The notes beneath the pieces are model-generated. The model was given only the letters and a program-made list of their open reading frames with translations. It made no database searches and was not told the origin of the DNA. This document shows, piece after piece, positions 3,898-30,451 of a stretch of DNA of 31,107 bases. This DNA is from a virus. The stretch covers positions 1 to 31,107 of IMG/VR virus record IMGVR_UViG_3300025816_000049. One strand, given 5' to 3'. Position numbers and translations under genes: made by a program. How positions within the stretch are numbered: position 1 is the first letter of the stretch; every line of letters starts with the position of its first letter.

Positions 3898-4091
3898 GTA
3901 TCGCAGAAATTTTAAGTCTTCGTTTTCAATTTGAAGAAATTATTCAAAACTTTGTTATTCCTGATAACAGAAAAGCAAGTATTTTAGAAAATATCATATG
4001 GTTTAAAAAATATGGCAATAGAAAAAATAGATTTAGAACTGGTTATGATCAAGCTATGGAAATTGCTAATAAAATTTTAAAGAACATTTAA
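3894..4091 (+). CDS. small hypothetical protein, 65 aa
   Basis: ATG at 3894 overlaps the HAD gene stop. The protein is helical and basic at the C-terminus (RKNRFRTGYDQAMEIANKIL). Not recognised. It ends 10 nt before the first base-paired segment of the permuted tmRNA gene, so the tmRNA could be transcribed by readthrough from this operon. Confidence 0.7.
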   Translation: MSIAEILSLRFQFEEIIQNFVIPDNRKASILENIIWFKKYGNRKNRFRTGYDQAMEIANKILKNI

Positions 4092-4100
4092 CTTATATAT

Positions 4101-4167
4101 ACTATGTAGTTGATGATATTAACTAGATGCATACTGGACTCGGGGGCGGTACCCGACAGCTCCACCA
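4101..4167 (+). ncRNA. ssrA: permuted tmRNA: acceptor (3') piece
   Basis: The segment ends in CAGCTCC + ACCA (4157-4167), the alanine-type tmRNA acceptor end; CAGCTCC pairs with GGGGCTG at 4308-4314, which lies downstream rather than upstream. A five-pair T stem (TCGGG 4140-4144 with CCCGA 4152-4156) encloses a 7-nt loop GGCGGTA that lacks the usual TTC. Upstream bases 4102-4107 and 4118-4122 can pair with 4342-4347 and 4332-4336 of the coding piece. The 5' boundary is approximate. The order acceptor-spacer-coding piece is the circularly permuted, two-RNA tmRNA layout. Confidence 0.87.
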
Positions 4168-4182
4168 TAAGGACACTAAATA

Positions 4183-4320
4183 ATGGACTTTCATTGGATA
4201 AGTTGGACTAAAGGAGAACCCTTTCAATGGGGAGATTTTAGATACAATAACGGTAATCCATATAAAAATTACCGTATTGGTCCGTTACTTATTCGTGTCT
4301 TTTTGAGGGGGCTGAAATAG
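4183..4320 (+). CDS. 45-aa ORF inside the tmRNA intervening segment
   Basis: ATG at 4183 follows AAGGA (4169-4173) with about 9 nt spacing, and the frame runs 45 codons to TAG at 4318-4320. The product is Trp/Tyr/Phe-rich with a basic hydrophobic end (IGPLLIRVFLRGLK), not an obvious random translation. Nearly all of the 140-nt segment between the two tmRNA pieces is this ORF, and its last 13 nt are the first bases of the tmRNA coding piece. Cleavage to form the tmRNA 5' end would therefore cut this message. Not recognised. Confidence 0.5.
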   Translation: MDFHWISWTKGEPFQWGDFRYNNGNPYKNYRIGPLLIRVFLRGLK

Positions 4321-4478
4321 GATCGACAGGTGTTGACGGAAACATGGAGACTATCCCGATCTAAGCTGGGTTAACGCGAAGAACTTTACAAGTGCAAACA
4401 ATAATTGTGCTCCATCTGGTTACGCCCTAGCGGCCTAACACAGGGGGTTGGCGACTTACCTAGCAACAGAAAAGTCGT
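4308..4478 (+). ncRNA. ssrA: permuted tmRNA: coding (tag) piece
   Basis: It begins GGGGCTG followed by AAATAGGATCGACAGG, the conserved tmRNA 5' tRNA-like half. The tag frame starts at GCA 4394 and ends TAA 4436-4438, encoding ANNNCAPSGYALAA, whose YALAA end is the classic ClpXP degron. The stop lies in a hairpin region (CCCT/AGGG), as in known tmRNAs. The piece closes with a 6-bp hairpin (CGACTT 4452-4457, AAGTCG 4472-4477). Function by family knowledge: rescue of stalled ribosomes and tagging of the nascent chain, with SmpB. The 3' end is approximate. Confidence 0.92.
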
Positions 4479-4488
4479 ACTTATTTTT
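4451..4488 (+). terminator. hairpin plus T-rich run after tmRNA
   Basis: CGACTT/AAGTCG stem with a 14-nt loop is followed by TTATTTTT. It may terminate the tmRNA transcript or form the 3' end of the coding piece. The late promoter begins two bases later. Confidence 0.45.
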
Positions 4489-4489
4489 G

Positions 4490-4497
4490 TATAAATA
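4490..4497 (+). promoter_or_regulatory. T4-type late promoter
   Basis: TATAAATA, the gp55-type late promoter core, lies 25 bp before the lipoprotein start (4522) with AGGAG between. It separates the tmRNA from the late block downstream. Confidence 0.8.
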
Positions 4498-4521
4498 GTA
4501 TCGATAGACAGGAGTTTAACT

Positions 4522-5103
4522 ATGAGTAAACAACTATTGATATTGATATTATTAACACTAGCAGCATGCACATCAAAGCCTATTGTTTTGTATGCGCAAA
4601 CTGTAATAGACTCCACAACTGATAGTAAAAGCAAAACAGACTCTAAGGGTAGAACAATTGTAATTTCTCCTCCACCAAGTGCTATTTCTCCAAGTGCTGG
4701 AGGTAGTTCTCAAGATTTATGTACTGTTGGCATATCAGGTGCAGTACAAACACAAATTTTAGGTATATCAACTGGAGAAACTGTTACCGATCAGAATTGT
4801 GAAAGACTTAAAATATCAAAAACATTATATGACTTTGGAATGAAAGTTGCGGCAGTATCGGTCTTATGTCAAGACCGTAGAGTATACGATGCTATGGGAA
4901 TGGCAGGAACACCTTGTCCAATTTATGGTAAAATTGGCGAAGACGCAAAGGTTGAATGGAAAAAGCCATCAGGCAAAAAGAAAATTCCTGCAATAATTAT
5001 TCCGGAGACAAAAGCAGATGTTCAGAAAAGGCAATGGGATACTGGCAAAAGTGCTATTGGCGGTGCTCTTCTTATGCTTCTTTTGCTTGCCGCTGCCGGC
5101 TAG
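4522..5103 (+). CDS. lipoprotein, conserved in marine T4-like phages
   Basis: This 193-aa protein has a short signal peptide with lipobox LAAC (residues 13-16), predicting lipid attachment in the cell envelope. A Ser/Thr/Lys linker and a Pro/Ser stretch (ISPPPSAISPS) follow, then a conserved-looking domain (LCTVGISGAVQTQILGI ... NCERLKISKTLYDFGMKVAAVSVLCQD) with paired cysteines. The end is hydrophobic (GGALLMLLLLAAAG). From memory similar proteins recur in marine T4-like phages next to tail or envelope-interaction genes; function unknown. It has its own late promoter. Confidence 0.82.
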   Translation: MSKQLLILILLTLAACTSKPIVLYAQTVIDSTTDSKSKTDSKGRTIVISPPPSAISPSAGGSSQDLCTVGISGAVQTQILGISTGETVTDQNCERLKISKTLYDFGMKVAAVSVLCQDRRVYDAMGMAGTPCPIYGKIGEDAKVEWKKPSGKKKIPAIIIPETKADVQKRQWDTGKSAIGGALLMLLLLAAAG

Positions 5104-10546: not shown

Positions 10547-10660
10547 ATGGAAGAGGAAGACGAAGGCTTTTATATTGATGACGACGGCGTAGCAGTTATT
10601 CTTGAACCTATCCATTTTAAATATCCATATGGTAGAGATGACGACGATGAAGACGTTTAA
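10547..10660 (+). CDS. mini-protein sharing the DEGFYIDD motif, 37 aa
   Basis: ATG at 10547 gives MEEEDEGFYIDDDGVAVI. The same motif appears at residues 10-23 of the next protein (KEDEGFYIDDKGVAVF), so this looks like a duplicated N-terminal cassette or a remnant of a longer gene. It overlaps the next gene by 14 nt and ends in an acidic run. Confidence 0.55.
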   Translation: MEEEDEGFYIDDDGVAVILEPIHFKYPYGRDDDDEDV

Positions 10661-11567
10661 ACAGTATTCAAAAGAAGACGAAGGCTTTTATATTGATGAT
10701 AAAGGCGTTGCTGTATTCACTGATATTTTAGGACACGGTGATAAACCTAAAAGTATCAATAAACCTAAAAAAGTTGTTAAAGAAAATGCTTCTGCTGTCA
10801 AACATATAGCAAAAGAAAAAAGCTGGTTGAATTGGCGTCATGAATCTATTCACGACGGAGAAGAAGTAGATAATGATGAACATGTTGAAGAAAAGTCTCA
10901 TCAATTATTGCAGCACCATCAAAAGCATCAAGAGAAAAATCCTTTAAGTGACGATCAAAAGAAAGCGATCAAAGGATATACATTAGATTCAGAAAGATTT
11001 AATAAACATTTAATCGAAAAGCACACATTAAAGTCTCGCAGAAAAGTTCCAGACCACCATTGGGATGGCATGAATGGAATTCCTGATGACAAGGAAAGAG
11101 CTAGGCATGATGTAATGCATAAACATTTGAGTGATGCTTATCATCCTATGGGAGGACATTTCAAGCTATGGGCTGGAGTATCTTCTAGAGTTAGCAAAGC
11201 AGTAAAAAAATCGAAAAATGGTATAATTCATCCAGGTGGAGGTCACATATCTACTACATATGATAAAGATGTGGCACAGACTTTTGCAGCTAAAAAGACT
11301 AAGGGGCCTGATGGGTTAAAACAACCGTATGGTAGACATCACTATATGTGTATACATGCGAAACCAAAAGACAATGTTCTTAGTACTGAGCATAACAGTA
11401 AATGGCAATCGGAGAGAGAAGTTTTAGTTAAAGATAAATTAAAACATATCGGTACTACAAAGCACTACGTTAAACATGCTTTTAAAAAAGCTGATGGCAG
11501 CTATGACGAACACACTACAGAACATCACGTTGATCATTTTGAAATTCATCACGACGGGAGTAAATAA
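10647..11567 (+). CDS. ADP-ribosyltransferase-like protein, probable injected internal protein
   Basis: This 306-aa protein starts MKTFKQYSKEDEGFYIDD, recalling the capsid-targeting leader of T4 internal proteins (MKTYQEF...). Residues about 105-265 follow the R-S-E ADP-ribosyltransferase plan: helix GYTLDSERFNKHL, strand KLWAGVS where the usual Arg is replaced, ISTT (201-204), and SEREVLV with the E-x-E pair E256/E258. It is very rich in His and Lys. Such enzymes modify host proteins right after injection (T4 Alt role). I chose ATG 10647 rather than upstream ATGs because of the leader match. Confidence 0.72.
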   Translation: MKTFKQYSKEDEGFYIDDKGVAVFTDILGHGDKPKSINKPKKVVKENASAVKHIAKEKSWLNWRHESIHDGEEVDNDEHVEEKSHQLLQHHQKHQEKNPLSDDQKKAIKGYTLDSERFNKHLIEKHTLKSRRKVPDHHWDGMNGIPDDKERARHDVMHKHLSDAYHPMGGHFKLWAGVSSRVSKAVKKSKNGIIHPGGGHISTTYDKDVAQTFAAKKTKGPDGLKQPYGRHHYMCIHAKPKDNVLSTEHNSKWQSEREVLVKDKLKHIGTTKHYVKHAFKKADGSYDEHTTEHHVDHFEIHHDGSK

Positions 11568-12583
11568 TGGAAAGATTTGGATCATTCATAAAAGATGAAG
11601 GTTTTTATATGAGCAATGGTGTGGTTACTCTCAGCAAAGCTATAGGTGACAAAACTCCTAGAACAAAAAGAATTGAAAGAGGTATATTTGAAGGATTTGA
11701 TACTACCGGTTTTAAGCAGGCAAAAAAAGAAAAACGGGTCGATCATAAACATCACGAGGCTCGTGATGACTTACATGATAATAAAAAAAGAACACATATT
11801 GATGATGTTCAGATGAATAAGAATATCTTTGGTGAAACTGGTCATGAACTCAGCACATCACATCGTGGATCTGATATAGAAGAAGTAGGTAGTTTATCAA
11901 GTAAACTTGAACAAAAAATGACACCAGCACAACATAAAGCTTTTCACCATTTTACGGCTGGAAAATCTGACACAGCTGGTGATGGTAAAAAATGGGCATC
12001 TAGTCATATAGCTCAGCATTTTATAGCTATGCACAAACATAAGACAGAAAATAAAAAGTTAAGTGAGTACCATCCGCACTCAGTTGTTGGTCAAGATAAA
12101 GACACTGCAGAACATCTTAAAACCGCAGCTAAACCTCTTGGCCATAATGTACATCTTTATTCTGGTGTTCATCCTTCATTTGTACAAGCCATTAAACATG
12201 CAAAAAAACATACCGATGGCGTTGTTCATTCTCCAGCTCATATTTCTACTACTCATGATGTGCACACCGCAGCTGGATTTGCAATTCATTCCGGCCACGC
12301 GAATGAGCATGTTAGACCTTTAAATAAAAATACAGATACTCAATATGTAGGTAAAACAACTAAACATATGATTCACGTTCATGCTAAAGCTAGTGATAAA
12401 GGTATTCATATGAGTGGTGTAGAAGGTAACAAACATGCTGCTGAAGCAGAAACTGTACTTCCGCCTGCAACACAGTTAAAATATTCGCATACTACACATC
12501 ATTATCACACAATGCCAGATCAGGGCGATGACGATCATCATAGAATAGACGTACATCATTGTACGATCCATAAACAGGACTAA
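11567..12583 (+). CDS. ADP-ribosyltransferase-like protein 2, probable injected internal protein
   Basis: This 338-aa paralogue-like neighbour starts MERFGSFIKDEGFYMSNGVV, sharing the DEGFY leader. The catalytic region shows LYSG (197-200; the family Arg position is Ser), HISTTHD (226-231) followed by AAGFA, and AAEAETVLPPATQ with E293-x-E295, a clear ARTT-loop ending. It is His-rich throughout. It overlaps the first ART gene stop by one base and ends the late block. The target is unknown; host RNA polymerase or ribosome-associated proteins are precedents in T4. Confidence 0.75.
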   Translation: MERFGSFIKDEGFYMSNGVVTLSKAIGDKTPRTKRIERGIFEGFDTTGFKQAKKEKRVDHKHHEARDDLHDNKKRTHIDDVQMNKNIFGETGHELSTSHRGSDIEEVGSLSSKLEQKMTPAQHKAFHHFTAGKSDTAGDGKKWASSHIAQHFIAMHKHKTENKKLSEYHPHSVVGQDKDTAEHLKTAAKPLGHNVHLYSGVHPSFVQAIKHAKKHTDGVVHSPAHISTTHDVHTAAGFAIHSGHANEHVRPLNKNTDTQYVGKTTKHMIHVHAKASDKGIHMSGVEGNKHAAEAETVLPPATQLKYSHTTHHYHTMPDQGDDDHHRIDVHHCTIHKQD

Positions 12584-13923: not shown

Positions 13924-13952
13924 TGTACATACTAAACAAACTGTGATATAAT
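13924..13952 (+). promoter_or_regulatory. early-type promoter for tRNA-Arg and structured RNA
   Basis: TGTACA (13924-13929), 17-bp spacer containing ACTGTGA, perfect TATAAT (13947-13952). Predicted start about 13959, three bases before the tRNA. Confidence 0.85.
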
Positions 13953-13961
13953 ATAAGTATT

Positions 13962-14038
13962 GGTCCCTTAGCTCAGCTGGATAGAGCAAGTGCCTTCTAA
14001 GCACTAGGTCAGAGGTTCGAATCCTCTAGGGTCCGCCA
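13962..14038 (+). tRNA. tRNA-Arg (anticodon UCU)
   Basis: A 77-nt cloverleaf with encoded CCA. Anticodon TCT at 13996-13998 reads AGA. D stem GCTC/GAGC, anticodon stem AGTGC/GCACT, T stem AGAGG/CCTCT with TTCGAAT loop. The acceptor stem has one U-U mismatch at the third pair (T13964/T14032). AGA is common in AT-rich phage genes, so it likely supports late translation. Confidence 0.95.
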
Positions 14039-14040
14039 GA

Positions 14041-14203
14041 CACTAACTATGAACTAAAGGGGGATTAGTTAGTGAAACCCTATAGATTTTGGAGGCCCCA
14101 ATCTATAGGTCGGTACATTCGCTGATACCGCGAGAAACTCAGCCGGTTGCTGCATACGTAAAATGCAGATAGAAGGGGAGGCACTGCAGAAGGCCTCCCC
14201 TTT
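14041..14203 (+). ncRNA. unidentified structured RNA downstream of tRNA-Arg
   Basis: No ORF covers this segment, but it folds almost completely: helix A 14041-14049/14066-14074 (9 bp, perfect), helix B 14079-14088... (CCTATAGATT/AATCTATAGG, 14100-14109, 10 bp), an H-type pseudoknot from CGGTA/TACCG (14111-14115/14126-14130) and GCTGA/TCAGC (14121-14125/14139-14143), helix D CTGCAT/ATGCAG (14150-14155/14163-14168) and helix E 14073+100 to 14202 (AAGGGGAGGC/GCCTCCCCTT at 14173-14182/14193-14202). G-rich loop A (14059-14063) could kiss the CCCC in loop B (14096-14099). Probably co-transcribed with the tRNA. I cannot assign a family. Confidence 0.72.
14173..14203 (+). terminator. strong GC hairpin, terminator-like
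   Basis: A 10-bp stem AAGGGGAGGC/GCCTCCCCTT with a 10-nt loop is followed by only three Ts and an AT-rich stretch, so it may end the RNA or be its last structural helix. Confidence 0.5.
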
Positions 14204-14246
14204 GATTAATAAATAACGGATTTATTAATCATTGATTAATAAATAA
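14204..14246 (+). promoter_or_regulatory. AT repeat with two AATAAATA late-promoter-like boxes
   Basis: GATTAATAAATAA occurs at 14204-14216 and 14234-14246, with the inverted TTTATTAATC at 14221-14230 between. Each direct copy includes AATAAATA (14208-14215, 14238-14245), which fits the relaxed NATAAATA late motif of marine T4-like phages. They precede the gene at 14280. Confidence 0.5.
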
Positions 14247-14517: not shown

Positions 14518-15693
14518 TTGTATTGTAGAATGCCCCACGCAGGTTTAACACTTCAACCTAACGGTGATATTGGTCTTTGTTGCGCGGCTTGGCAAAAAAT
14601 GGAATTTGGTCATATATCAAAAATCGATAGCATTAAAGAAATATGGGAAAATGATCCTAAGCTTTTAATGTTAAAGGAAGATGAACCGTATTTAGTACAG
14701 CAAGCGTGTGGTACATGTTTAAAAAAATCTAAACAAAATCTTGATTGGCAATGGGGACTTTGGAATATTCCAAAGAACGGTTCTTACAGAAAAGAAGTAG
14801 GTGAGTTAGACGGTAAGCTTAAGTTTCTAGAATTTACAACATCTAATATTTGTAATCAAACATGTATTACTTGTTCAAGCTATTTTAGTTCAAAATGGAA
14901 ATCTGTTGAACAACAGATTCTGCGTGAAGGTATTCCACTTTATGATTGGAAAACTCATGAACATGGCTTCGGCGCTTATGGTTATGATCATTATAGAATG
15001 ACTGATTCTGACATCGATAAAATTATAGAAATTCTACCAGACCTTAGAATAATTTCTATAAAAGGTGGAGAACCTTTTGCTGATAAAAATAATTTTAGAA
15101 TTTTAGAAGAGTTAAAAAAAGTAAATCCTTCTTGCATTATTAAAGTCAATAGTAATTTTTCAAAAATTCCAAAAAAATTTGTTGATGTTTTAAAAAACTT
15201 TGAATGCCAAATTACAGTGTCAACTGACGGAATTAATAAATCATACGAATATATAAGATCTACTAAGTTTAAAAATACTATTGATAACATGAAAATGTGG
15301 AAAGAAGAAATTGGAGGAAAAATAGCAATAGCTTCAATAATTAGTATTTACAATATGTACGATATAGAAGAAACATGTGATTATTGGGAAAAAAGTCCTT
15401 ATGTTGATTATTGTAATATTAGAGGATTTGTGTTTAATCCAGACTTTGTTTCACCATTATCTTTATTAAAAGAAGAGCAGCTTGATGAATGGATATATAA
15501 TACTAATCAATATATTTCTAATATGCAATCACGTAAAATTCAATACAACTTATTAAAACATGTTAATCATAAAAATATTAATGAATTAGAAAAAAATAAA
15601 GTAGTATCAAAATTTCATTCATATACTAAATTTATGAATAAATATAGAAAAATTAATATATATGATATACATCCACAATTAAAAGATATATAA
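14518..15693 (+). CDS. radical SAM protein with twitch domain
   Basis: This 391-aa protein starts at TTG 14518 after GAAAGGATATACAA. The N-terminal part (CRMPHAGLTLQPNGDIGLCC ... ACGTCLKK, C3, C21/C22, C64, C67) resembles a SPASM/twitch auxiliary cluster region placed before the core. The radical SAM cluster motif is CNQTCITC (CX3CX2C, about residues 113-120), then ISIKGGEPFADKN (the GGEP motif) and STDG. It would cleave S-adenosylmethionine to start radical chemistry. The substrate is unknown; peptide modification is the commonest role of twitch/SPASM enzymes. Confidence 0.85.
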   Translation: MYCRMPHAGLTLQPNGDIGLCCAAWQKMEFGHISKIDSIKEIWENDPKLLMLKEDEPYLVQQACGTCLKKSKQNLDWQWGLWNIPKNGSYRKEVGELDGKLKFLEFTTSNICNQTCITCSSYFSSKWKSVEQQILREGIPLYDWKTHEHGFGAYGYDHYRMTDSDIDKIIEILPDLRIISIKGGEPFADKNNFRILEELKKVNPSCIIKVNSNFSKIPKKFVDVLKNFECQITVSTDGINKSYEYIRSTKFKNTIDNMKMWKEEIGGKIAIASIISIYNMYDIEETCDYWEKSPYVDYCNIRGFVFNPDFVSPLSLLKEEQLDEWIYNTNQYISNMQSRKIQYNLLKHVNHKNINELEKNKVVSKFHSYTKFMNKYRKINIYDIHPQLKDI

Positions 15694-16487: not shown

Positions 16488-16689
16488 AAGAATAAAATTA
16501 TTTATTGCTTGGTATAAACAATTAAGGGAAAGGAGACATGAATTTCCTTTCCCTTGGTACTATCACACTTCATATAATATTTGGAATTGTTTTCGTTGGG
16601 CTGTATATAATTCAGCTAATAATGATATTAATGGAAATTACTTGTATAAATATTCCCAATGTGGCAAATATAAGAAAAGGATAAGATAG
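16480..16689 (+). CDS. small basic hypothetical protein, 69 aa
   Basis: TTG at 16480, overlapping the preceding gene, is the best available start. The protein is rich in Arg, Trp and Tyr (WYKQLRERRHEFPFPWYYHT). Not recognised. A TATAAATA sequence (16645-16652) lies inside its 3' end and appears to serve the next gene. Confidence 0.6.
   Translation: MNRRIKLFIAWYKQLRERRHEFPFPWYYHTSYNIWNCFRWAVYNSANNDINGNYLYKYSQCGKYKKRIR
16645..16652 (+). promoter_or_regulatory. T4-type late promoter before the synthetase-like gene
   Basis: TATAAATA lies 37 bp upstream of GTG 16689, inside the previous gene. The exact match and its position make a late promoter for the synthetase-tRNA pair plausible. Confidence 0.6.
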
Positions 16690-17513
16690 TGACACAGTTG
16701 ATTGAACCAAAAAAATTTACGAAAGCAGCTGACCTTTTAAGGTCATTTTTTTTAAATAGAGGCTTTCAAGAAGTACATACCCAAAATCGTTTAAGTATTT
16801 TAGCGGCGTGCGAAGATCCAGAAAATGTAGCAACATATAATTATGAAGGGCAAATATGGCCTCTTCCTCAAACTGGCCAGATGTGGTTGGAATATGAATT
16901 ATTAACTCGCCCCTCTTCGAAGGGGTTTTTTTGTATCTCAACTTCATACAGACAAGAACCAAATGCAATTCCTGGAAGACACGATACAATTTTTCCAATG
17001 TTTGAATTTGAAATGCCAGGAGACTTTGAAGATCTTAAAGTAATGGAAAGACAACTTTGTGCTTATATGGGATTTGATGATTTGACAGAAAAAACTTATG
17101 CTGAGTGGCAGGAAAATTATTCATTACCTTTAGATAAAGAGCTTACAGCTGATCATGAACTAGCAATGTACTATGAATATAAAAGCTGTATGATCACAGA
17201 TTTTCCAGAAATAACTAGTCCATTTTGGAATATGTCAAGGAATGAAGACGGAACAAGCAAAAAAATAGATGTCATTCTTGGTGGCATGGAAACAATTGGC
17301 AGCGCTGAAAGATCTACAGATGTTAAGCAAATGAGAGATACATTTCATACTATTTCAAACGGCGAATATGCCGGTCTTATTAACAAGTTATTTGGTAAAG
17401 ATCGTGTTGAAGCTGAACTTGAAAAGTTTCTTGAATTTGATTTCTTTCCAAGAGTTGGTGGTGGAATAGGTATGACCCGCATGATCAGTGCGCTCGATAC
17501 TCTTAAAAAATAA
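16689..17513 (+). CDS. free-standing class IIb aminoacyl-tRNA synthetase core (AsnRS/AspRS/asparagine-synthetase-A-like)
   Basis: This 274-aa protein starts at GTG 16689 (AAAGGATAAGATA upstream) and shows all three class II motifs: motif 1 LLRSFFLNRGFQEVHT (about 16-31), motif 2 TSYRQEP...GRHDTIFPMFEFE (85-108; R88, E90, R97, H98) and motif 3 VGGGIGMTRMISAL (256-269; R264). QTGQMWLEYELL and GGMETIGSAERSTD match the Asp/Asn/Lys subgroup. The N-terminal OB-fold anticodon-binding domain is absent. It could charge a tRNA or, like archaeal AsnRS-derived AsnA, make asparagine from aspartate and ammonia. The Asn-anticodon tRNA 6 nt downstream favours a link to asparagine either way. Confidence 0.85.
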   Translation: MTQLIEPKKFTKAADLLRSFFLNRGFQEVHTQNRLSILAACEDPENVATYNYEGQIWPLPQTGQMWLEYELLTRPSSKGFFCISTSYRQEPNAIPGRHDTIFPMFEFEMPGDFEDLKVMERQLCAYMGFDDLTEKTYAEWQENYSLPLDKELTADHELAMYYEYKSCMITDFPEITSPFWNMSRNEDGTSKKIDVILGGMETIGSAERSTDVKQMRDTFHTISNGEYAGLINKLFGKDRVEAELEKFLEFDFFPRVGGGIGMTRMISALDTLKK

Positions 17514-17519
17514 GAATAA

Positions 17520-17628
17520 TCCGAGGTGGTGGAATGGTAGACACGCCGTACTGTTTATACGGTGAATCAAATGTACCCGCAAAAGTATATTTATATTCGT
17601 GAAGGTTCGAATCCTTCCCTCGGAGCCA
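17520..17628 (+). tRNA. atypical tRNA, anticodon GUU (Asn) on a class II Leu-like scaffold
   Basis: A 109-nt tRNA with encoded CCA. Acceptor TCCGAGG/CCTCGGA with discriminator G, D stem GTG/CAC with a Leu-type loop, anticodon stem CCGTA/TACGG around CTGTTTA (anticodon GTT 17553-17555; position 37 is U), T stem GAAGG/CCTTC with TTCGAAT. The variable region is 38 nt (17563-17600) and folds into a 12-bp arm (GAAT/ATTC, then AAATGTAC/GTATATTT). Bacterial tRNA-Asn normally has a 5-nt variable loop. The U1-A72 pair, G73 and GUU are Asn-type; the body is Leu-type. Confidence 0.88.
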
Positions 17629-29542: not shown

Positions 29543-30451
29543 ATGTCTTTTGCAAATCTTAAACGTGACCGCGGTCAGATTAATAAACTCGTCGCAGCAG
29601 CCGAAGCTGCTGGTGGTGGGGCAACGTCAAATAAATATACGGATGATCGTATGTGGAAACCGACTGTTGACAAACAGAATAATGGTTATGCTGTTATTCG
29701 CTTTCTTCCAGCTACTGAAGGTGCCGAACTTCCATGGGTTCGTTATTGGGATCATGGTTTTAAAGGTCCAACTGGTAAATGGTATATCGAAAAATCACTT
29801 ACTTCTATTGGTCAAGAAGATCCAGTTGGCGAACTGAATAGTAAGCTCTGGAATACCGGACTAGAATCTGATAAAGAAACTGCACGTCGTCAAAAACGTC
29901 GTTTACATCACGTATCAAATATTTTAGTTGTATCCGATCCAGGTAATCCTGCTAATGAGGGTAAAGTATTTCTTTATCAGTATGGCAAAAAAATCTTCGA
30001 TAAATTGATGGATGCAATGCAACCAGACTTCGCGGATGAGGAACCAATTAATCCATTTGATTTCTGGACTGGTGCAAACTTTAAACTAAAAATTCGTGAT
30101 GTTGAAGGCTATCGTAATTATGATAAGTCTGAGTTCAGCCGACAAGAAGCACTATCTGAAGATGATGCAAAACTTGAAGGGATTTATAATTCCATGCATG
30201 ATTTAAACAAATATGCAGAAGAAGGCTATAAGTCATACGCAGAACTTAAAACTAAGCTAATGAGTGTACTAGGTGAAGCCGCTGTTGGTGGTGCGCCTAC
30301 CATGGCTCAAGAGCGTAGTCTAGGTGAAGAACGGCCAGCTGCTCCTATAAAGACCGCTCCAGCGCCTCAAATGACTGCTGTGGCATCGTCTGAAGCAAAT
30401 GATGACGATGACATTATGTCACACTTTGCTAATCTAGTAAATGAAGACTAA
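29543..30451 (+). CDS. 32: single-stranded DNA-binding protein gp32
   Basis: This 302-aa protein aligns with T4 gp32: basic N-terminal domain for cooperativity (FANLKRDRGQINKL, about 1-20), core OB fold (YAVIRFLPATEG, HGFKGPTGKWYIEKSL, NILVVSDPGNPANEGKVFLYQYGKKIFDK), and acidic C-terminal tail (EANDDDDIMSHFANLVNED) that contacts replication partners. The zinc ligands of T4 (three Cys) are missing; only the His is kept, as in marine T4-like gp32. It coats ssDNA in replication, recombination and repair. Confidence 0.95.
   Translation: MSFANLKRDRGQINKLVAAAEAAGGGATSNKYTDDRMWKPTVDKQNNGYAVIRFLPATEGAELPWVRYWDHGFKGPTGKWYIEKSLTSIGQEDPVGELNSKLWNTGLESDKETARRQKRRLHHVSNILVVSDPGNPANEGKVFLYQYGKKIFDKLMDAMQPDFADEEPINPFDFWTGANFKLKIRDVEGYRNYDKSEFSRQEALSEDDAKLEGIYNSMHDLNKYAEEGYKSYAELKTKLMSVLGEAAVGGAPTMAQERSLGEERPAAPIKTAPAPQMTAVASSEANDDDDIMSHFANLVNED

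Follow-up and report, generated by a model that had tools for sequence, protein, structure and literature searches.

A family of small structured RNAs in marine T4-like phages with palindromic loops predicted to support self-association

Introduction

What is the structured RNA encoded directly behind a tRNA-Arg gene in a marine T4-like phage, and does it act on its neighbors or away from them? The roles of RNAs from phage tRNA islands have been a puzzle for decades, as with T4 RNA C and RNA D, or for years, as with GOLLD and ROOL. RNA D (species 2) and RNA C (species 1) are stable RNAs of unknown role (PMC3014915, PMC9697503). GOLLD and ROOL, from phage and prophage tRNA islands, form homo-oligomeric cages, and the kissing loops of GOLLD are backed by covariation of palindromes (PMC12286853). 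Here we describe the RNA of the window, by which we mean the whole 31,107-base stretch of DNA that was analyzed (a virus record of IMG/VR), together with its relatives in other marine phages.

Setting of the RNA in the window

The window encodes several tRNAs and comes from a T4-like phage, whose gp32 is 59% identical to gp32 of Phage C48C1 and 51-55% identical to those of Kyanoviridae pelagi-, methylo- and cyanophages. The tRNA-Arg gene, with anticodon UCU and an encoded CCA, occupies 13962-14038 on the plus strand (ARAGORN; Rfam tRNA, 67 bits), and the structured RNA begins 2 nt past its end. A tRNA-Arg(UCU) is found at the equivalent place in most close relatives, and it is presumed to form one transcript with the structured RNA. 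A preliminary description of the locus had given the two a strong shared promoter. An extended -10 site, TGTACA-17-TATAAT, is present before the tRNA at 13924-13952, but 3 promoter-like sites were counted against 4.2 expected from shuffles, and the claim is withdrawn. In the relative L002, TATAAT alone is retained from this site.

Other elements of the window were recorded in passing. A circularly permuted tmRNA of the alphaproteobacterial type, with the tag ANNNCAPSGYALAA, lies at 4071-4529, and the related phages L288 and L289 also carry a tmRNA, with the tags ANNNFAPSGYALAA and ANDNFAPSGYALAA. Two adjacent long open reading frames at 10602-12583 (321 and 338 aa) partly resemble each other, and neither matches Pfam or PHROG. 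Downstream of the structured RNA, a Radical SAM/SPASM protein gene (14518-15693) is unaligned in the close relatives compared. The region 16689-17625 holds a class II (D/K/N) tRNA synthetase-like protein that matches phrog_29758 (unknown function) at 437 bits. After its gene, at 17520-17625, is a tRNA-like gene (Rfam 48.8 bits, no ARAGORN call) whose body is of the leucine type, whose variable region is long and whose anticodon seems to be GUU (Asn); L093 has an identical anticodon loop. The protein and the tRNA-like gene are possibly a phage-specific synthetase/tRNA pair.

Fold of the RNA

The segment 14036-14210 has a folding energy of -62.1 kcal/mol, where shuffles average -43.4 kcal/mol (z = -4.9, with 0 of 200 shuffles as low), and the RNA itself spans 14041-14203 on the plus strand. 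The preliminary description had placed a structured RNA of five helices here. The fold is confirmed and its core helices are backed by relatives, with the count rising to six (P1-P6) when the two pseudoknot stems are taken separately. Our covariance model, R1, scores 14075-14205 at 151.6 bits, the window being part of the R1 training set.

P1 is a 9-bp hairpin (14041-14049 with 14066-14074; whole element 14041-14074) that forms a variable outer domain. In relatives it takes the form CUGAGUA/UACUCAG or GRG-GAAAGCC-hairpin-AAACGUA-CYC, and it is apparently missing from several copies linked to gene 32. P2 (14079-14109) pairs 14079-14088 with 14100-14109 and carries the palindrome GGCC at its apex (14094-14097). 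An earlier proposed contact between GGGG at 14060-14063 and CCCC at 14096-14099 does not stand, as L006 shares the P2 loop and has GUUUAAAC in place of the G-run. P3 (14111-14130), the first stem of the pseudoknot, pairs 14111-14115 with 14126-14130 as CGGUA/UACCG, and P4 (14121-14143), the second stem, pairs 14121-14125 with 14139-14143 as GCUGA/UCAGC. The 5′ strand of P4 sits in the loop of P3, so the two form an H-type pseudoknot, at exactly the coordinates first described (14111-14143). Its first loop has five bases (CAUUC), the 5′ strand of P4 abuts the 3′ strand of P3, and the last loop is A-rich. P5 (14150-14168; 14150-14155 with 14163-14168) closes a conserved loop, ACGUNAA, at 14156-14162. 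P6 (14172-14203) is a G+C-rich hairpin of 11 bp (14172-14182 with 14193-14203), whose loop contains the self-complementary hexamer CUGCAG (14184-14189) and which is directly followed by a conserved GA (14204-14205).

Members of the family

A cmscan of the window RNA against Rfam 15, one of the checks proposed at the outset, matched no family either at the gathering threshold or at E 5, and the other members tested gave only tRNA and tmRNA matches. The search for homologues was productive, with relatives in ~100 marine T4-like phage contigs, and an RNA near tRNAs that is real, conserved and covarying across these contigs bears out the original description. Relatives were gathered from contigs with a HesB-like neighbor, from pattern scans, with R1, and from one MAG contig (L114). 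The upstream Fe-S (HesB-like) gene, used as an anchor, led to contigs with the RNA after tRNA-Arg. The copies in L002, L004 and L006 have 90-96% identity. A strongly diverged set, group B (L008, L009, L013-L017 and L085), was left out of R1, which was built from ten sequences; R1 nevertheless recovers the group B members with scores of 58-65 bits and E values of about 1e-15 to 1e-17.

Other searches came back empty: blastn of three members against INPHARED phages gave no real match, the exact pseudoknot string was not present in viral contigs, and the Radical SAM neighbor, tried as an anchor, led to no relatives. R1 found no match in the cultured phages HTVC008M, P-RSM6 and C48C1, and only chance-level matches (E 0.14 and 0.71) in Melnitz phage. 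Each contig holds a single copy of the RNA, even those as long as 221, 151 and 135 kb. Judged by these sequence searches, these RNAs make up an undescribed non-coding family of marine T4-like phages, small (about 130-200 nt) and structured. The breadth of this family was absent from the preliminary description, as were the palindromic loops and the copies linked to gene 32.

Covariation of the helices

In an alignment of ten sequences, 96.2% of the cells in paired columns are paired and 15 pairs have two-sided changes, with 0 of 500 shuffles as high. An alignment of 71 sequences, which was fitted to R1 and hence is biased towards the nested helices of R1, gives 95.8% paired cells and two-sided changes in 24 of 34 pairs (0 of 500 shuffles), with 350 two-sided cells compared to 86 in shuffles; when the partners are slid, pairing falls to 33-44%. 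By helix, the changes fall in 6 of 8 pairs of P2, 5 of 6 of P5 and all 10 counted pairs of P6, while P3 is 99.2% paired.

P4 is absent from R1 and was assessed differently. Two of the search patterns had fixed letters of this stem, one CTGG with CCAG and another CTG, and for this reason covariation of P4 is claimed solely from groups found by other means. Group A (GCUGA/UCAGC), group B (CUCUG/CAGAG) and L102 (ACUGG/CCAGU) were recovered without any condition on P4, and together they alter all five of its pairs two-sidedly. A scan with a pattern for P5 only added nine sequences in which a C-G pair of P3 becomes U-A, and a further form of P4, ACUGA/UCAGU. Compensatory change, the test on which the preliminary description had staked its helices, supports every core helix and both stems of the pseudoknot, and it shows an architecture of P2, an H-type pseudoknot of P3 and P4, P5 and P6.

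Palindromic loops of P6 and P2

P6 lay outside every search pattern used. In 63 of 63 members examined outside group B, its loop holds a hexamer (CUGCAG, CCUAGG or CUCGAG) that is perfectly self-complementary, and the flanking purines are unpaired in most. The group B loop, UGUGCAUA, is self-complementary only by way of two G-U pairs. Across the alignment, self-complementarity in the columns of the hexamer reaches 98.1%, and their covariation score is 0.80 compared to 0.22 in shuffles. Control hairpin loops from the same contigs contained a 6-mer palindrome in 114 of 1917 cases. The covarying bases of the hexamer include adjacent ones, which cannot pair within one chain, and the argument is then the one made for the symmetric kissing loops of OLE and GOLLD. 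Loops L9.3 of OLE and L21a of GOLLD are the precedent for recognizing such contacts by palindromes that persist while their letters change (PMC12286853). The P6 loop might alternatively pair with P5 (through CUGCA), but this was ruled out, as members with CCUAGG retain an identical P5.

The apex of P2 behaves similarly. It carries GGCC in the window and UGCA, GUAC, UCGA, ACGU, GCGC or UUAA elsewhere, and 20 of 26 distinct apical loops contain a 4-mer palindrome (shuffle mean 9.9, maximum 17; 0 of 5000 shuffles as high), set against 79 of 1176 control tetraloops. In several of the other six, the minimum-energy fold places the palindrome outside the loop. L310 and L327, otherwise nearly identical, have UCGA and GCGC at the apex, both sides having changed with the palindrome intact. 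Counting palindromes over the whole inner sequence of P2 is weakly informative (45 of 45 against 32.6 expected, maximum 41), and the apical-loop and control-hairpin tests were used for this reason. Some of the P2 palindromes are weak (UUAA), and often they have just 4 nt. The ACGU of the P5 loop is a fixed string in most members and not a changing palindrome.

Comparison of the two loops adds some qualifications. The palindromes of P2 and P6 are mostly unlike, except that in L295 and in group B each RNA has one core palindrome in both loops; orthogonality of the two contacts is therefore not universal. P6 differs between the window and L114, which are otherwise near-identical copies, and recombination may swap whole P6 modules; independent changes of the palindrome would then be fewer than the sequences. 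With this reservation, the loop comparisons show palindromes kept at the P6 loop and the P2 apex while the letters change. Both loops are proposed as homotypic contacts, with P6 a kissing-dimer site and P2 a symmetric kissing loop, through which the RNA probably self-associates as pairs or larger assemblies.

Genomic context and alternative explanations

Among 70 relatives examined for context, over half of the copies have a tRNA gene within ~350 nt, in most cases Arg(UCU). At least 14 contigs have the RNA directly 3′ of gene 32, beginning ~2-121 nt past the point where the gene 32 match ends. A tRNA-Arg comes directly downstream of the RNA in L102 and L270. The next gene differs among relatives, being a 74-aa ORF, another ORF, tRNA-Met or others, which argues against the riboswitch-like leader initially suggested and for a trans-acting RNA. 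A cis-acting leader and a terminator were both rejected on these varying neighbors and on P6 itself: a terminator scan called 0 canonical terminators, P6 included, and in many members P6 ends without a U-tract (CCCACGAAAA). That the copy is single, mobile and conserved, with no constant partner gene, suggests that the RNA works in trans.

Two further elements were seen near such loci. A possible second structured element, CCYGTGAAATAYCRGTGTCGTGAAAAC, is shared by two contigs ahead of the tRNA/RNA, in L219 upstream of 7315 and in L156 on the minus strand just 5′ of the RNA. In Melnitz phage (L303), a 208-nt gap 3′ of gp32 (2406-2613) contains a strong terminator-like hairpin that R1 does not match, and is another candidate RNA at the gene 32 3′ position.

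The placement behind gene 32 also fits a cis-acting element at the 3′ end of mRNAs, in which the pseudoknot and terminal hairpin would shield abundant transcripts (gene 32 mRNA and tRNA precursors) or end transcription, with the palindromes incidental or aiding the pairing of transcripts. The G+C-rich P6 and the short U-runs of some members agree with such a role. The terminator results above, and the two copies with a tRNA downstream, do not. Additionally, protection leaves the two kept palindromes, the changes in P4 and the constant P5 loop unexplained, and a general 3′ protector is not expected as one copy per contig. We consider this reading unlikely, though the best placed of the alternatives.

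Gene 32 raises a second possibility, as the leader of T4 gene 32 contains an autoregulatory H-type pseudoknot. By analogy, the RNA described here, with its own H-type pseudoknot and its adjoining gene 32 in at least 14 contigs, could bind gp32 as an operator or a titrating decoy. The position is 3′ of the gene and not in its leader, tRNA islands hold most copies, and no copy sits behind gene 32 of the window itself (29543-30451), all of which make a gp32-binding role very improbable. Nearly as far down, and slightly below it, we place a DNA-level element, for example a recombination or terminus site of nearly palindromic hairpin DNA to which RNA structure would be secondary. Inverted repeats with palindromic centers and the apparent swap of P6 between the lineages of the window and L114 would suit it. 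The P6 loop is consistently asymmetric, usually with 1 nt before the hexamer and 2-3 purines after it, the pseudoknot pairs of P4 covary in a manner not required of DNA hairpins, and the RNA lies on the same strand as the neighboring transcript, and these three features count against it. The weakest candidate, by analogy with the theta ribozymes next to phage tRNAs for which trimming of tRNA 3′ ends has been proposed (PMC10879173), is a small self-cleaving ribozyme with that function, since the pseudoknotted RNA does begin right past the tRNA CCA in the window and several relatives, but Rfam ribozymes are unmatched even at E 5, P1 is a simple, variable local hairpin, hence there is no HDV-like nested double pseudoknot starting at the CCA, and many copies lie at a distance from any tRNA or precede one.

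Comparison with known RNAs

GOLLD and ROOL resemble the marine RNA in being structured and phage-encoded near tRNA islands, and their symmetric kissing loops (PMC12286853) have proposed counterparts in it. They differ in fold, and many GOLLD RNAs exceed 800 nt, compared to about 130-200 nt here. The OLE homodimer uses a palindromic tetranucleotide loop contact in which GGCC changes to GAUC or AGCU (PMC12286853), a changing palindromic loop much like the contacts proposed for the marine RNA; OLE is otherwise large, protein-binding and not phage-linked. The Rfam 15 profiles of GOLLD, ROOL and OLE leave the members of the marine family unmatched. The oligomerization predicted from covarying palindromic loops fits the contacts of these three RNAs, and from sequence comparison the marine RNA is a new family of a known broad kind, not a member of GOLLD, ROOL or OLE. 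Like the window RNA, T4 RNA C and RNA D come directly after tRNA-Arg in a phage of the T4 type, and this shared synteny suggested homology to RNA D. The sequence and predicted fold are unlike, and R1, which has no match in the complete T4 record at E 0.1, rules it out.

Two further RNAs are comparable only in how they work. The HIV-1 dimerization initiation site (DIS) is a hairpin loop with a 6-nt palindrome and unpaired flanking purines, and its palindrome varies by lineage. It is an unrelated RNA, and the marine RNA has in addition a second palindromic loop and a pseudoknot. The packaging RNA of phi29 is likewise a small phage RNA that oligomerizes by loop-loop pairing, between two different loops, and is unrelated in sequence and phage type.

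Proposed model and significance

We put at roughly two in three the probability that this is a small phage RNA family that forms homodimers or oligomers by homotypic kissing loops and acts in trans. The RNA would be transcribed with a host operon, that of tRNA-Arg here and of gene 32 elsewhere, and would persist as a stable RNA. Two or many molecules would then bind through P6-P6 kissing over 6 bp, flanked by purines like those of the DIS loop, and through homotypic P2-P2 kissing over 4-6 bp. The resulting dimer or higher oligomer would display the pseudoknot and the conserved loops, the A-rich L3 and the ACGUNAA of P5, in two or more copies. During infection, this assembly may serve in trans as a scaffold for its partner or as a decoy, the partner being perhaps a protein, the ribosome or a tRNA.

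It is a further speculation that the P6 palindrome may define self-recognition. That a common marine phage RNA class builds an RNA-only assembly whose lineage-swapped palindromes amount to RNA-coded self-recognition is a tentative extension of the model that we think rather doubtful. If true, each phage RNA would assemble during infection solely with its own kind, into a closed dimer, ring or filament, and few natural RNAs bearing two self-complementary kissing loops would be as small.

The two palindromic loops make an unusually clean prediction of self-assembly, in a family of short RNAs that recurs widely across marine viral metagenomes. If the prediction is true, RNA homo-oligomers would extend beyond the giant RNAs, and the family would offer a compact model for what phage RNA assemblies do.
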